The notes below the pieces were generated by a model, which worked only from the letters and a program-made list of their open reading frames with translations, did not search any database and had not been told where the DNA came from. The position numbers were made by a program, and so were the translations under genes. Of a stretch of DNA of 28,767 nt, positions 8,861 to 19,636 are shown piece after piece. This DNA is from a virus, in IMG/VR virus record IMGVR_UViG_3300028589_000034, positions 1-28,767 of that record; one strand, 5' to 3'. Every line of letters starts with the position of its first letter. The stretch's first letter is position 1.

Positions 8861-9861
8861 CACAAAACCCCCTCACGTTTAAGCACGTACTCAGAAATCG
8901 GCAAATCCTCAGCCGCACCCAAGCCAGGCCAAATATTGGCGTCACGACATACTCGATACTTCTTGATGGCTGCCGCCAATTGTTTGCGACCGAGCTGCCA
9001 GGCTGACGGCTGTTCGACATGCCACTCAGACGACGACGGATCAATGCGACCACTACGCGACCGCTCCATGATGACGAAAGTTTTACAGAGGTACGGCACA
9101 TCCTTCTCCTGAGCCAGAATCGCATAGCCAGCCGGGTAGTGACCGTAGGCCTGCTTGAACAGCTCACACTCCATGACGGCGCGCATCGGGTAGCCGTATT
9201 CGGTAGCCTTGCGTCCGAACTTCTCTGGCTCGGCATCCAGGGTGGACTTGTAATTGACCAGCCATTCGCCAGCAGTGATCAGATCCGGACGACACTTGAA
9301 CTCGTCAGTCACAATCGACATTTCCGAGAAGCCGCCTTCGAACATCTTGGCGCGGTCTTCGTCCAGCATCAGTGAGTGACGCATTGCCTGGATTTTGTCG
9401 TAGTCGGCGGCCGGGATGAATTCGAGATCATCGCGAAGTGCGGCCGTCCGCTCAATGCGATACTTATCGCGCTCAACGTCTTCAATGTGAACAGCTTCCT
9501 TGGTCTCCAGGATCCGCTCAATCAACTCGGCATTGGTGCCGGATACCTTCATGCCGCGATCCTTGAGCCAGTCCTTGTAATCCTGGCCCTTAGTCATGAT
9601 CGACTCGTAGATGCTCGGGTCGAAGTCACGGCAGTAAGCTTCAGCGAACCGCTCAGGCTCCAGCATCATGGCGTGCGACCAGATGCCGAAGTCCAGGGCT
9701 TTGCGACCAGGGATCTCGCCGAACATGGCTTTGGCTGCGGAGTGGACGTAGAGACGATGCAGGAAGCTACCTGAGCGCTGAGGCAGGGCTTGGTAGTCCT
9801 CGTTGCTCAGGGCATCAGGCGTGAAGATGCGGATTGATGTGGTGATGGGTTTGGCGGTCAT
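8860..9861 (-). CDS. PD-(D/E)XK exonuclease, RecE/Cas4-like, with internal SAP-like segment
   Basis: A 333-residue protein with the order of phage RecE-like nucleases: LSNEDYQALP near the N-terminus, ALDFGIWSHAMMLEPERF (about 55-72), CRPDLI (Asp193), then WLVNYKST and a Tyr/Gln-rich helix (YGYPMRAVMECELFKQAYG). The family's usual DxK here reads Asn203-Tyr-Lys205, so one catalytic acid appears replaced. Residues about 95-119 (YKDWLKDRGMKVSGTNAELI) match a SAP DNA-binding motif inserted in the fold. It would resect DNA ends for the Sak4-like annealing ATPase two genes downstream. Coupled to neighbours by ATGA and TGATG. Confidence 0.8.
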   Translation of the reverse strand: MTAKPITTSIRIFTPDALSNEDYQALPQRSGSFLHRLYVHSAAKAMFGEIPGRKALDFGIWSHAMMLEPERFAEAYCRDFDPSIYESIMTKGQDYKDWLKDRGMKVSGTNAELIERILETKEAVHIEDVERDKYRIERTAALRDDLEFIPAADYDKIQAMRHSLMLDEDRAKMFEGGFSEMSIVTDEFKCRPDLITAGEWLVNYKSTLDAEPEKFGRKATEYGYPMRAVMECELFKQAYGHYPAGYAILAQEKDVPYLCKTFVIMERSRSGRIDPSSSEWHVEQPSAWQLGRKQLAAAIKKYRVCRDANIWPGLGAAEDLPISEYVLKREGVL

Positions 9862-12937: not shown

Positions 12938-14904
12938 GCCGTCGCCTCCATAAAATTCTCAGTCTCCGCCGCAACATCGGCGAACTTCATCCTTCCCACA
13001 GTCCAACGCCCATTCTTCTCCCTAGCTGAAATCTCAATCGGAACCGGAATCAACTCCAGGTTTTGCATTATCGTTTCGGCCTTCATTGCACCGAGCCTAA
13101 ACTTGCTGCGGTCATCAATCGGCAAATTCTTCACAAAGCCTTTCCAGATTTTTGAGTTCAATGCCGGTTGCTTGCCTGCGTGAGGATAATAGATAAGTAG
13201 TGGTTGTCGGCCATCGGATAGCTCGAAGCGGATTTGGAGTTTTCCGCCTCGGCCGGATTCGATTTTCATGGCGCGGACGGGGATGGATTCTTGTTCCGAA
13301 TAGTGCTTGCCAGTCAGCGCGGCATTAGGATCCAGCAATAGGGTTTTGCATGCGCGACACTCGCGGGCTACCTGATCGTTCTCGACAAAGCATCGAGGGC
13401 ACATGCGTGAATGCCAAAAGTGGTCGCAGCGCTCGCCGGAATGATCTTTGCCGATGCAGCGGCGGGCATTCGGGCTGTTCATGGTGTAGCACTTTTGACA
13501 TTGTATTAGGTCTTTTCCTTCCTTCTTGGCTTTCTCCAGCTCAGCCATTTCAAGCACTGGGTTTTCGTAGAGGGCGCCAAGCTCCATCATTACGCCCGCG
13601 TAATCCAACACCAGAGAGTCGGGCTTGCCACTGGCGGCGATCATCAATTTGCGCAATTCAGCAGTCAGCGCGTCACGCTCGACCATAGGCATTTCGTCAT
13701 CTTCAATCAGCAGTCGGAGGATGCGGCCGATAGCCTGAATCAGCAGAACGATTGCCTTGATTGGTCTCATCAAGACCTCGGTGTCCCAATAAGAATTATT
13801 CACGCCAGTCGTCAGAACTCCGACGTTAATCACGTATTTCAGCCTGCCAGCCTTCGACTCGGTAAGGATTCGCGTCTGTTCTTTTTGAGTCGTCGAGTCG
13901 ATGATGATCCCTATCTGATCCGGATCAACGCCGAGAAGCTTGAGAGCTGCCGCGATTTGCCGCGTATGGCGCTGAGTGGACGCAAAGATGAGGACGCCCT
14001 TCCGATCCTTAGACTTGCGCACGAAGTCGGCACAGATTGCCAGGCATAACTCCTTGTCGCTGACCGCCGCGTCAAGCTCCCATTCTGGGTAGTCCCACTG
14101 CTCGGCAGATAGATGGCTGAAGTCATAATGGGTGTCTTCGTCGTCAGGAAATCCAAAAGTAGGCGCGACTACCCACCCCTGCTCTATCATGAACTCGGTC
14201 GAGATGATTCCGTTGCCGACACCTCCTTCGGGGTAGTCAGGATCATCCGGCTCAATGCTGACAACGCCCCTCCATAGGTGTTGCGGAGTATCTCCAACAA
14301 TAGAATTGGCGCCGCGAAATGGCGAGCCGGTCATGCACGCCAAACGCATATGCGGCTTGCAGTCATAGAAGTGCAGCAGCGTCTTCATGTACTGCGAATC
14401 TGGCGATTCAAAGGGGCATTGGTGGCCTTCATCGATAAGGATTAGGTCGGGATGAAACTTCCTCAGTCGGCGCCGCTGCTCATGAGAAAGCTTGAGCTCG
14501 TCCTCGGTATAAGGCGAAAACCTGTATGTCTCCAGAGCCCTTGCAATGGTGCCCTCGCTAGCATAGACAACGGAGTAGTGAGTGCTCTTTTTGTTGCCGC
14601 AAGATGCGCTAAAGATCGAGTTATTAAGCCCGATAGACCAGGCGGCATCACTGTTCTGAGCTACCAGGAGTCCTTGCCGTTGAATAACCATTATCAAGAC
14701 GGTGGCCGGCTTGTCTCTTTTTAGCGCCGCCTCTTTCACTGCGGCAGCGCACTCTGCCAGCATAATGCTCTTCCCGCTTGAAACCGAGGCCGAGACAATG
14801 ACTGGTGGATGGATCTCGCGGTCGCCGAACTTAACAGTCTGGCGAGTCCTGAAGTGGCGGCACAACGCTGTTACTGCTGGCTTTTGAAATGACAGCAACG
14901 GCAT
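12934..14904 (-). CDS. SF2 DNA helicase with Cys-rich zinc region
   Basis: A 656-residue helicase. Motif I is SASVSSGKS (38-46), motif II DEGH (158-161), motif III TGSPFR (192-197) and motif VI QAIGRILR (390-397), so the two RecA-like domains look intact and are of the DEAD/DEAH-like SF2 type seen in phage replication. After them, residues 469-519 hold eight Cys in four pairs (CQKC, C-x9-C, CPRC, CRAC), probably two zinc ribbons for DNA binding. The C-terminal 130 residues are of unknown fold. The ATG at 14904 overlaps the AP2/HNH stop (TAATG). Likely unwinds DNA for replication or the adjacent nucleases. Confidence 0.85.
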   Translation of the reverse strand: MPLLSFQKPAVTALCRHFRTRQTVKFGDREIHPPVIVSASVSSGKSIMLAECAAAVKEAALKRDKPATVLIMVIQRQGLLVAQNSDAAWSIGLNNSIFSASCGNKKSTHYSVVYASEGTIARALETYRFSPYTEDELKLSHEQRRRLRKFHPDLILIDEGHQCPFESPDSQYMKTLLHFYDCKPHMRLACMTGSPFRGANSIVGDTPQHLWRGVVSIEPDDPDYPEGGVGNGIISTEFMIEQGWVVAPTFGFPDDEDTHYDFSHLSAEQWDYPEWELDAAVSDKELCLAICADFVRKSKDRKGVLIFASTQRHTRQIAAALKLLGVDPDQIGIIIDSTTQKEQTRILTESKAGRLKYVINVGVLTTGVNNSYWDTEVLMRPIKAIVLLIQAIGRILRLLIEDDEMPMVERDALTAELRKLMIAASGKPDSLVLDYAGVMMELGALYENPVLEMAELEKAKKEGKDLIQCQKCYTMNSPNARRCIGKDHSGERCDHFWHSRMCPRCFVENDQVARECRACKTLLLDPNAALTGKHYSEQESIPVRAMKIESGRGGKLQIRFELSDGRQPLLIYYPHAGKQPALNSKIWKGFVKNLPIDDRSKFRLGAMKAETIMQNLELIPVPIEISAREKNGRWTVGRMKFADVAAETENFMEATA

Positions 14905-15518
14905 TAGATGATCTCCTTATCCGGTAGATAGCGCGCGCGAAGAGCGTCAGCAATGCGTGGATCTTCCTGGGCTTCAGCATAAGCCAGTGCGTGCTCATGT
15001 TTTTTTCTTCTCCAGGCCTCATGAGCGGCGGCGGGAGACAAGAATCCGCCAAGATATTCACACTTGCCAGTGTTGGGATTGTTGCAATGCGCTAAAAACT
15101 TTTTACCGTTGCAATAGAGGCAAACTCCGAGGGGCCATTTACCCCTCCCTGCCGCATGATCAGTGAGAAAACAATTAAGCTTCTGGCTTATGAATATGCA
15201 GAAATCAGGGCTATAAATCTTATTGCCTTTAACTAATAGATCTTTATCGATCTCGTTACCTTCCCATGGCTGAGTTAATGCCCAAGCACGAAAGGATGAA
15301 AATCTATGCCATTCTGACGTTACATAGCAATCAGCGTAAGAAGGAGACTTATCCCGATGCCTTTCTGAGTAGCACCTAAGCAACATGTTGCTCCACGCCC
15401 TATATAGCGGGCACATCCAAATAATCTTGGACCTTCCGTCCGCGCGAATTGATTTGGTGATGTTGTAGTCAGCATCATTAATGCCGACTCCATACAGAAG
15501 TTTTCCCCATCCAGCCAT
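14904..15518 (-). CDS. AP2/HNH-type homing endonuclease-like protein
   Basis: A 204-residue protein. CPLYRAWSNMLLRCYSER, YVTSEWHRFSSFRAWA and QPWEGNEIDKDLLVKGNKIYSP ... CIFISQKLN form the HNH-like core typical of phage AP2-associated endonucleases, and WPLGVCLYCNGKKFLAHC ... YLGGF followed by a helix is the AP2-like DNA-binding part. Start at 15518 (MAGWGKLLYG) follows GGTGGGG; the TTG-start extension lies in the terminator's U-tract. The gene is visibly more AT-rich than its neighbours (for example 15181-15260), a sign of transfer. The stop is TAATG-coupled to the helicase. It follows RNA E1 directly. Confidence 0.8.
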   Translation of the reverse strand: MAGWGKLLYGVGINDADYNITKSIRADGRSKIIWMCPLYRAWSNMLLRCYSERHRDKSPSYADCYVTSEWHRFSSFRAWALTQPWEGNEIDKDLLVKGNKIYSPDFCIFISQKLNCFLTDHAAGRGKWPLGVCLYCNGKKFLAHCNNPNTGKCEYLGGFLSPAAAHEAWRRKKHEHALAYAEAQEDPRIADALRARYLPDKEII

Positions 15519-15531
15519 AAACCCCACCCAC

Positions 15532-15675
15532 AAAAAAGCCCTTTGACTGTTCGCTGGTGAGACTCCTGGCAGGACTTGGATCGACGGCGGTCAATCCTGC
15601 GAGGAACAGCGAACATCAAAAGGCTCTGGTTAGCCGTCGATCCTGATTTGCCTCGCCGTCTCACGGGCTACGCAA
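15532..15675 (-). ncRNA. Candidate structured RNA E1: pseudoknot/terminator upstream of AP2/HNH gene
   Basis: On the - strand a 5' arm with GTGAGAC (15664-15658) and GGATCGACGG (15643-15634) is followed by a long imperfect hairpin: AGCCTTTTGATGTTCGCTG (15625-15607) pairs with CAGCGAACAGTCAAAGGGCT (15556-15537), with an inner stem GCAGGA/TCCTGC. The hairpin interior holds CCGTCGATCC (15587-15578) and GTCTCAC (15563-15557), exact nested complements of the 5' arm. T6 follows (15537-15532). The topology equals that of RNA E2 at 8198-8306, although the sequences differ. A promoter lies at 15681-15709. No known family recognised. Confidence 0.6.
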
Positions 15676-15680
15676 ACCCA

Positions 15681-15709
15681 ACAATACCAATTCCCCGCAG
15701 TCAGGTCTA
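15681..15709 (-). promoter_or_regulatory. Promoter candidate for RNA E1; -35 overlaps stop codon
   Basis: TAGACC (15709-15704) and TATTGT (15686-15681) on the - strand are 17 bases apart, and TGG precedes the -10 as an extended element. The TAG is the stop codon of the upstream 121-residue gene. Each hexamer matches the consensus at four positions, so it would be moderate. Confidence 0.5.
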
Positions 15710-18770: not shown

Positions 18771-19636
18771 GCGAACAGGATCGCGTTCCCCAGCATGTCG
18801 TTGATCGCGCCAATGAGGATATTGTTGGCGTAGTTCAAGGCTATCTGCCGGATCTCAAGAGAGGCGGTAAGAACTGGTCGGCGCGCTGCCCATTCCATAA
18901 AGAGAAGTCGGCCAGCTTCACGGTCAGCGAATCCAAGGGCATGTACTACTGTTTTGGCTGCGGCGCTGGTGGCGATGCCGTCAAGTTCGTTATGGAACAT
19001 CAGGGCATGGCGTTTCGTGACGCCGTCCAATCGATTCTTGGCGAGCTGACTCTTGAGTCATCATCGATCGAGCCTCGCAAGCAAGCAGTGCGCGCCACCC
19101 GCTGCGACCTACCCAGCCACGCCGAAGACCGCCAGAAATCCGCAGACATCCTTTCTCGCTGCCAGTCAGCCGAACAACACAAGTACCTTATGCAGAACAA
19201 TACCGCTCCGAATATCCAGTGCCTGACTATCAAGGGCGCGCTGATCGTCCCGCTGATCAACAATATCGGCGAAAAAGTAAACGCGGCAGCAATCGCCGCT
19301 GACGGCGCCATAAAGTATGCAGCCGGCAATCCATCCTTTGGCTCGACCGCTATCTTGGAGCCGACATCAGCCGCCGAGTTCGATAGCAAAACCATTATCT
19401 GCGCCGACTACGCCCATGCCTGGCGCATCTGGTGGTCGCAACTCGGCAAGAGTCGGGTGCTATGCGCCATGGGAGCCGACAACCTGAACTGGATGCTGGC
19501 GAACTGCAAAGATCGATTCACCCATGTCGGCTGCGATCCCTGTGACGCCGACGAGCACGCAGAAATGGGTCGAGGCGTTGTCGCTATTCCGCTTGACCCA
19601 TACGCCAAACTTGACAGGAAGTCAGTAGCGGCTTAG
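18767..19636 (+). CDS. CHC2 zinc-finger primase-like protein
   Basis: A 289-residue protein. CPFHKEKSASF (Cys41, His44) and YYCFGCGAGGDAVKFVM (Cys62, Cys65) form the CHC2 zinc finger of DnaG-type primases. The second half resembles a degenerate TOPRIM region (ALIVPLINNIGEKVNAAAI, TIICADYAHAWRIW, HVGCDPCDADEH), but the usual acidic metal-binding cluster is not clear. No helicase domain is fused. It would prime, or recruit, replication with the DUF3987 protein encoded at 26506-28200. It is coupled to the regulator (ATGA), an unusual partnership that places replication initiation in the repressor's operon. Followed by a terminator. Confidence 0.8.
   Translation: MSEQDRVPQHVVDRANEDIVGVVQGYLPDLKRGGKNWSARCPFHKEKSASFTVSESKGMYYCFGCGAGGDAVKFVMEHQGMAFRDAVQSILGELTLESSSIEPRKQAVRATRCDLPSHAEDRQKSADILSRCQSAEQHKYLMQNNTAPNIQCLTIKGALIVPLINNIGEKVNAAAIAADGAIKYAAGNPSFGSTAILEPTSAAEFDSKTIICADYAHAWRIWWSQLGKSRVLCAMGADNLNWMLANCKDRFTHVGCDPCDADEHAEMGRGVVAIPLDPYAKLDRKSVAA

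Follow-up and report, generated by a model that had tools for sequence, protein, structure and literature searches.

The window examined here, a stretch of 28,767 nucleotides (nt) comprising positions 1 to 28,767 of the IMG/VR virus record IMGVR_UViG_3300028589_000034, contains two RNA-like elements, E1 and E2, each followed by a gene for an HNH endonuclease. All parts of E1 are on the minus strand; the element spans 15676–15532 and occupies the gap between the stop codon of a small gene (16072–15707) and the HNH gene. The observation made in an earlier note on this sequence is confirmed, and E1 has the following parts (Table 1): a hairpin, P1, with an arm, a1, in its loop, a second arm, a2, a long hairpin, P2, containing the partners of both arms, a1′ and a2′, a T6 tract and the HNH gene, which is coupled by TAATG at 14904 to a helicase gene. 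As also noted, E2 has the same topology with an unrelated sequence, and a different HNH gene follows it.

In both elements, a stable hairpin is directly followed by a U tract, as expected of an intrinsic (Rho-independent) terminator. The 182-nt E1 segment has a predicted fold of −71.3 kcal/mol (z −2.45), and the E1 arm sequences hardly occur elsewhere in the window. The spacing of 14 nt reported between the conserved blocks on each side is exact in E1, but the equality is not kept in the homologous element of phage Orisa03. The label "AP2/HNH" given to the E1 protein is fair for its family, though a Pfam search of the protein gave no match; PHROGs identified it as a phrog_953 HNH endonuclease (E 1e-77).

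Table 1. Positions of the parts of E1 and E2 and of the genes behind them.
Feature	Position	Strand	Remarks
Putative sigma-70 promoter of E1	15709–15681	−	TAGACC (15709–15704), spacer 17, TATTGT (15686–15681); overlaps TAG stop of upstream gene
E1 P1 hairpin	15676–15647	−	TTTGC-GTA-GCC[CGTGAGAC]GGC-GAG-GCAAA
E1 P1 8-nt loop CGTGAGAC	15665–15658	−	carries arm a1 GTGAGAC (15664–15658)
E1 arm a2 GGATCGACGGC	15643–15633	−	complementary to apical loop of P2
E1 P2 long terminator hairpin	15624–15538	−	outer strands GCCTTTTGATGTTCGCTG / CAGCGAACAGTCAAAGGGC
E1 P2 sub-parts, 5′ side		−	b 15624–15607; c about 15605–15593; a2′ GCCGTCGATCC 15588–15578 in apical loop
E1 P2 sub-parts, 3′ side		−	c′ 15577–15564; a1′ GTCTCAC 15563–15557 in 3′ internal loop; b′ 15556–15538
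E1 T6 tract of intrinsic terminator	15537–15532	−	
E1 HNH endonuclease	15518–14904	−	phrog_953; begins 14 nt past T tract
DNA helicase (phrog_16)	14904–12934	−	TAATG couples HNH gene to helicase gene
E2 P1 hairpin	8303–8288	−	GCGG[GGTCAGAG]CCGC; a1 in loop
E2 arm a2 CGAAGT	8283–8278	−	partner ACTTCG 8244–8239
E2 P2 terminator hairpin	8273–8204	−	a2′ 8244–8239; a1′ CTCTGACCC 8233–8225; T-rich tail after
E2 HNH endonuclease	8189–7716	−	HNH_3; phrog_1872/59; stop overlaps start of next gene (ATGA)

Covariation in relatives of E1 and E2

A descriptor was defined as a terminator hairpin with an upstream hairpin whose loop has at least 7 nt complementary to an unpaired part of P2. In the window it matched E1 and E2 only; when the upstream sequences were swapped among the 29 P2 candidates of the window, it found 0.275 on average. 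False positives amount to 3.4 in 644 terminator hairpins, or about 0.5%. The count in the window is moderate evidence, suggestive but not decisive, and it is the comparative evidence that decides. An early test of the arms by energy alone was uninformative for E2.

Homologues of E1, referred to in the following as type A, were found in the Pseudomonas phages Orisa01–03, which match E1 at 73% of nucleotides over 143 nt (BLAST, word size 11). There, the HNH gene behind the copy belongs to a different family, phrog_99. In Orisa03, arm 1 reads GTGGAAC in place of GTGAGAC, and its partner reads GTTCCAC in place of GTCTCAC. An alignment of E1, Orisa03 and the IMG/VR contig L091 showed four pairs changed on both sides, two of them in a1:a1′, a number reached by 11 of 500 shuffles, and sliding the partners by one column lowered the pairing from 94% to 28–38%. 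The inner stem of P1 is preserved in Orisa03 and L091 through compensatory change, and the Orisa03 fold has a z of −4.41. Additional type A copies are present in Orimi01, AH02, HU1 and four IMG/VR contigs (L089–L092). The gene behind the copy is an antirepressor in Orimi01 and a phrog_99 HNH gene in AH02; the HU1 copy, with arm TTTGAGAC and partner GTCTCAAA, was located by BLAST with no pattern used. L090, L091 and L092 have near-identical RNAs and widely differing HNH proteins (those of L090 and L091 are about 50% identical to that of E1), which suggests an exchange of the gene behind a conserved RNA. The strict E1 pattern had no match in 84,980 bacterial genomes, nor was there a match in plasmid sequences, and a single-sequence search of IMG/VR with the E1 HNH protein returned nothing usable. 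Three matches to a relaxed a1 pattern (L095–L097) were chance hits, and BLAST matches in Synechococcus S-ESS1 and CC31 look like chance.

Two further descriptor matches, in AH02 at 29547–29622 and in the IMG/VR contig L081, have the arm CTTGGCGG and the partner TCCGCCAA. The pattern of this arm pair occurred in at least 120 viral contigs, forming a large third group, type B. The loci read contained 122 matches, AH02 and L081 included; 114 of these had a P1 stem of at least three pairs and a T-run, and covariation was measured on 48 non-redundant copies out of the 114. In this set, 96.9% of cells were paired, compared to 73.7% in shuffles, with 393 compensatory cells (106 in shuffles), double changes in 27 of 38 pairs and a covariation score of 0.600 (0.160 in shuffles). 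None of 500 shuffles attained the paired fraction, the compensatory count or the score, a contrast that is inflated by kinship among the rows because the shuffles treat the sequences as independent, whereas a sliding control retains the relatedness: displacing the type B partners by one column reduced the pairing to 43–45%. Where position 6 of the loop varied in hits with a P1 stem and T-run, all 15 variants, some of them near-identical, stayed complementary (U-A 11, A-U 4), with one third expected; among the hits lacking a P1 stem and T-run, 19 of 44 were not complementary. The type B a2 arms also pair better with their own loops than with the loops of other copies, a result attained in 0 of 2000 permutations. 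A single type B copy was present in 36 of 40 whole contigs, and the extra matches in the other four were chance pattern hits.

In the 84,980 bacterial genomes, the type B pattern gave 94 matches, with one real element in the 80 loci read. This element, L385 (CAIVLE010000028.1, a Burkholderiales metagenome-assembled genome), lies before a ParB-like gene and is probably a phage contig binned with its host. One type B contig, L113, carries a second element of the class at 9681–9813 (also in L258, near 18797–18885), which has the arm pair TGGAAGC/GCTTCCA, a TTGACA-17-GATACA promoter and no gene start directly behind it. A type B variant missed by the descriptor, L484:1899–1973, stands before an E1-type HNH gene; its kissing pair, loop CTTGGTAT and partner ATACCAA, is a further double change.

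The P1 and arm partner of E2 are shared by nine IMG/VR contigs. In four of the nine, the RNA is nearly identical to E2 but precedes an E1-type HNH gene, whose product is 53% identical to the E1 protein. The a2:a2′ pair changes jointly in L356 (CGAGTAA/TTACTCG) and in the L352 group (TTGGG/CCCAA). In L352, L354, L355 and L358, GC-rich repetitive sequence lies behind the E2-type RNA, with no gene start directly after it. A scan of 80 loci with E2-family HNH genes found no such RNA adjoining the HNH gene; one locus (L081) has a type B copy elsewhere.

Taken at the level of sequence, the relatives show a real, large and undescribed class of presumptive phage operon-leader RNAs, which we call kissing-loop terminators. 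Covariation shows that every predicted helix is preserved: P1, P2 on both strands, c, a1:a1′ and a2:a2′. Nearly all types have 8-nt P1 loops with a U-turn-like UNR at positions 3–5, and two elements within one phage (the window, AH02 and L113) carry different a1 arms. The earlier note was right that the shape is selected and that it recurs with unrelated sequence.

Genes behind the RNA and endonuclease insertion

An open reading frame was called behind 113 of the 114 type B copies, and in 111 of the 113 it starts on the same strand 0–19 nt past the T-run. When 104 of the downstream proteins were scanned, DUF1376 was found in 24, and PHROGs identified many as replication initiators, primosomal or DnaD-like proteins. 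The initiators are the most numerous; others are ParB-like, AntA, RecT, HNH and GIY-YIG proteins. Homing endonucleases account for 16 of the 113 by inspection (about 15%). RNAs of one type are found before HNH genes of several families, and HNH genes of one family lie behind several RNA types. With initiators as the largest group and the types shuffled in this way, the "RNA-HNH cassette" that had been proposed as a unit does not hold up.

In eleven type B loci with a homing gene, the sequence extends at least 1.1 kb beyond that gene. In eight of them, the gene after the homing gene is a replication initiator of the kind that elsewhere adjoins the RNA, and in six of these eight it lies within 6 nt of the end of the homing gene. 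As the endonuclease stands next to an initiator that elsewhere directly follows the RNA, we take it to be an insertion. Among relatives, the site was seen both with and without an endonuclease, in type B loci and in HU1 versus L089. The order in HU1 is RNA, a NUMOD4-HNH gene broken by a stop codon (L093:2664–3257) and an FtsK-gamma-like gene, and in L089, the RNA is directly followed by a 47% identical relative of the HU1 FtsK-gamma-like gene. Directly behind the AH02 HNH gene lies a second RNA, of the HU1/Orimi01 type, of which the 3′ half is present (L086:2655–2735) and the 5′ half missing, as if an RNA-HNH unit had replaced the missing half.

Seen from the side of the HNH genes, the RNA is strongly enriched. 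In 80 IMG/VR loci picked by E1-type HNH proteins, the descriptor gave 11 hits, with at least five different arm sequences among them, and in 10 of the 11 the HNH gene starts right behind the element. In 36 type B contigs, 3 of the 18 HNH_3 genes stand directly behind the RNA, compared to about 0.3 expected for roughly 2,000 genes, a count estimated from length. The association with HNH genes is real, but its best reading, judging from gene order, is that endonucleases were inserted repeatedly at a leader already in place. The HNH gene of E1 is probably an inserted homing endonuclease and that of E2 probably an insertion behind a leader RNA; by analogy with the type B loci, the helicase was probably the original first gene behind the E1 RNA. 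No empty version of the E1 site itself was found.

An attenuator model and its alternatives

On balance, we favor a model in which E1 and E2 are leader attenuators that gate operons, with homing endonucleases inserted behind the leader. A −10-like box is present at a fixed short distance before P1 in 35 of the 48 type B copies (17% in shuffles) and in every type A and E2 relative inspected; transcription should therefore start at or near P1. The transcript would start at or just before P1, which would present the U-turn-like 8-nt loop (a1), with a2 next. P2 would form after this, its apical loop holding a2′ and its 3′ internal loop a1′, and would be followed by the T-run and, within about 20 nt, the ribosome site. 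The linker between a2 and P2 is absent in type B and has 8 nt in E1 and 4 nt in E2, and a2′, at the tip of P2, is an estimated 59–106 Å away, which exceeds the reach of the linker in every case examined. With a2 next to the 5′ end of P2 and a2′ at the far tip, a2:a2′ pairing and a completed P2 base would be mutually exclusive. In 48 of 48 type B copies, a2:a2′ is less stable than the nine outer pairs of P2. An early pseudoknot could nevertheless delay or prevent termination, because a1′ and a2′ are transcribed before P2 is completed. The early kissing pseudoknot would then be the antiterminator and the finished P2 the terminator, making the leader a kinetic or regulated attenuator, a gate for a replication or recombination operon. 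HNH and GIY-YIG genes, repeatedly inserted between the leader and the first gene, would thereby come under the same gate.

Several points weigh against this model. The promoter that had been described as using the upstream stop codon does overlap the TAG, but its boxes are weak, with 8 of 12 matches, and fall below the threshold of a consensus scan; the boxes of homologues, equally far from P1, are better. Exclusion was argued from a simple estimate of reach, for which E1 is the closest case, with a reach of 58 Å against 81 Å. The a1 and a1′ columns are invariant in type B since the search pattern required them. One a1 type, CGCAACA, seen at two loci before HNH genes, does not fit a U-turn loop and is possibly due to chance. 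Finally, what links types A, B and E2 is topology and position rather than sequence, and the types may be convergent or very diverged; model R1 had no match to E1 or E2.

We also considered that the DNA of the element is a homing target, such that HNH enzymes cut in or beside the conserved gene for the RNA and a copy of the cassette is then inserted; homing, and not regulation, would in that case account for the HNH association. This is compatible with the attenuator model and a serious possibility, if the less probable side of the question: HNH and GIY-YIG genes of several families are inserted at the same place, the half RNA in AH02 lies right behind an HNH gene, and near-identical or closely similar RNAs precede genes for HNH proteins that are about 50% identical, but homing leaves the conserved fold and the endonuclease-free copies unexplained. 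Equally compatible with attenuation, though rather doubtful, is that the released short RNA acts in trans, its a1 loop and a2 pairing with a1′ and a2′ of nascent leaders to block the antiterminator and give operon expression a negative feedback that follows genome copy number, much as with P4 CI RNA or plasmid copy control. The U-turn-like loops, the replication initiators in many type B operons and the presence of one copy per specificity per genome, with paired elements differing in a1, would agree with such a role; the finished RNA, however, may sequester its own arms, and within the window, no trans target was found outside the element. A fuller scheme, which we consider unlikely as a whole, would have a widespread class of RNA attenuators specific to phages, with geometric exclusion between pseudoknot and terminator, in which the released leader is a trans dosage sensor limiting the replication genes and sequence-orthogonal loops allow two such elements to coexist in one phage.

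The geometry that bars a2:a2′ within one finished hairpin would permit pairing between molecules, and the element might be an independent structured RNA that assembles with itself through a1:a1′ and a2:a2′, as in phi29 pRNA, with the downstream gene incidental. This appears improbable, as the fixed gap of 0–19 nt to a co-directional start codon suggests a role for the downstream gene. A partner or guide RNA of the HNH enzyme, as in IscB/HEARO, would explain why RNA and HNH genes adjoin and the strong enrichment in the E1 HNH family. That possibility is already largely refuted and very improbable, given that a nuclease gene is lacking from most type B copies, HNH families and RNA types occur in shuffled combinations, there is no HEARO match and the RNA did not adjoin the HNH gene in the 80 E2-family loci. 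An ordinary intrinsic terminator with complementarity by chance might have been entertained from the descriptor alone (two hits against 0.275 expected in the window), but it is refuted by the covariation in homologues and has practically no standing.

The attenuator model would make this structured RNA, which has no match in Rfam 15 and is found in at least 100 environmental phages at the entrance to operons, often replication operons, a new design of transcription switch, in which exclusion is achieved by geometry and not by an overlap of base pairs; as a part, the RNA would be compact and sequence-programmable. The model would also explain where some phage homing endonucleases settle and how they may be kept in check.

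Comparison with known systems

When E1, E2 and 15 type B loci were compared to Rfam 15, no family was found at or near the gathering score, consistent with the statement in the earlier note that no such RNA family was known; matches below threshold (MtlS, M-box and others) were rejected as chance. No description was found in an open-access library searched at full text, a search that left subscription journals mostly outside its coverage. A phage leader RNA with a terminator is a known kind of element, but the architecture is undescribed. HEARO/IscB RNA was rejected based on the lack of an Rfam match and the assignment of the HNH proteins to phrog_953 and phrog_1872. Similarly, there was no Rfam match in the window to a group I or II intron, and the RNA sits between complete genes. 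An HDV-like double pseudoknot, with the helix order of type B, was rejected by inspection: the arm is in a hairpin loop and there is no catalytic C after P4.

The AbiF RNA (RF03085) has the layout promoter, RNA, terminator and gene (PMC12373285). This order of parts is common to the present elements and to AbiF RNA and type III toxin–antitoxin systems, where the terminator limits expression of the downstream gene (PMC12373285). In contrast, there is no AbiF or ToxN gene here, no tandem repeats and no Rfam match, the genes behind the RNA serve replication, recombination or homing, and neither a toxin gene nor an antitoxin RNA motif was detected by Rfam, Pfam or PHROGs.

IsrK, from the Salmonella Gifsy-1 prophage, is a leader RNA whose target is the read-through transcript of its own promoter (PMC4825925). 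Together with the phage P4 CI RNA and P1/P7 c4, it has in common with our elements a phage promoter, a small RNA, a terminator and a gene reached by readthrough; by sequence, our elements likewise have a predicted promoter, a weak one in E1 itself, a small RNA and a terminator before a phage gene on the same strand. Self-complementary segments and alternative structures are also shared with this group, and Orimi01 and L139 have an antirepressor gene downstream. The partner in IsrK is past the terminator, in orf45, and controls translation (PMC4825925), whereas here both partners are inside the terminator hairpin. The kissing loop, the many unrelated sequences and the replication or homing genes behind the RNA also set our elements apart, and the Rfam models of the IsrK, c4 and P4 CI type gave no match.

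The replication-leader RNAs of plasmids ColIb-P9 and R1 have the fast-pairing U-turn kissing loops of antisense systems, which the P1 loops of our elements resemble. The type B loop CUUGGCGG similarly has UUGGCG, with the partner CGCCAA, and is often found before a replication initiator; however, the partners here are on the same strand and combined with a terminator, and no antisense RNA was found. In T4-like phages, RNA hairpins before free-standing homing endonuclease genes limit expression and mask the ribosome site. Intergenic insertion and the limitation of endonuclease expression by an upstream RNA structure would be common to both, but the structure here is a pseudoknotted terminator that appears to have existed before the endonuclease.

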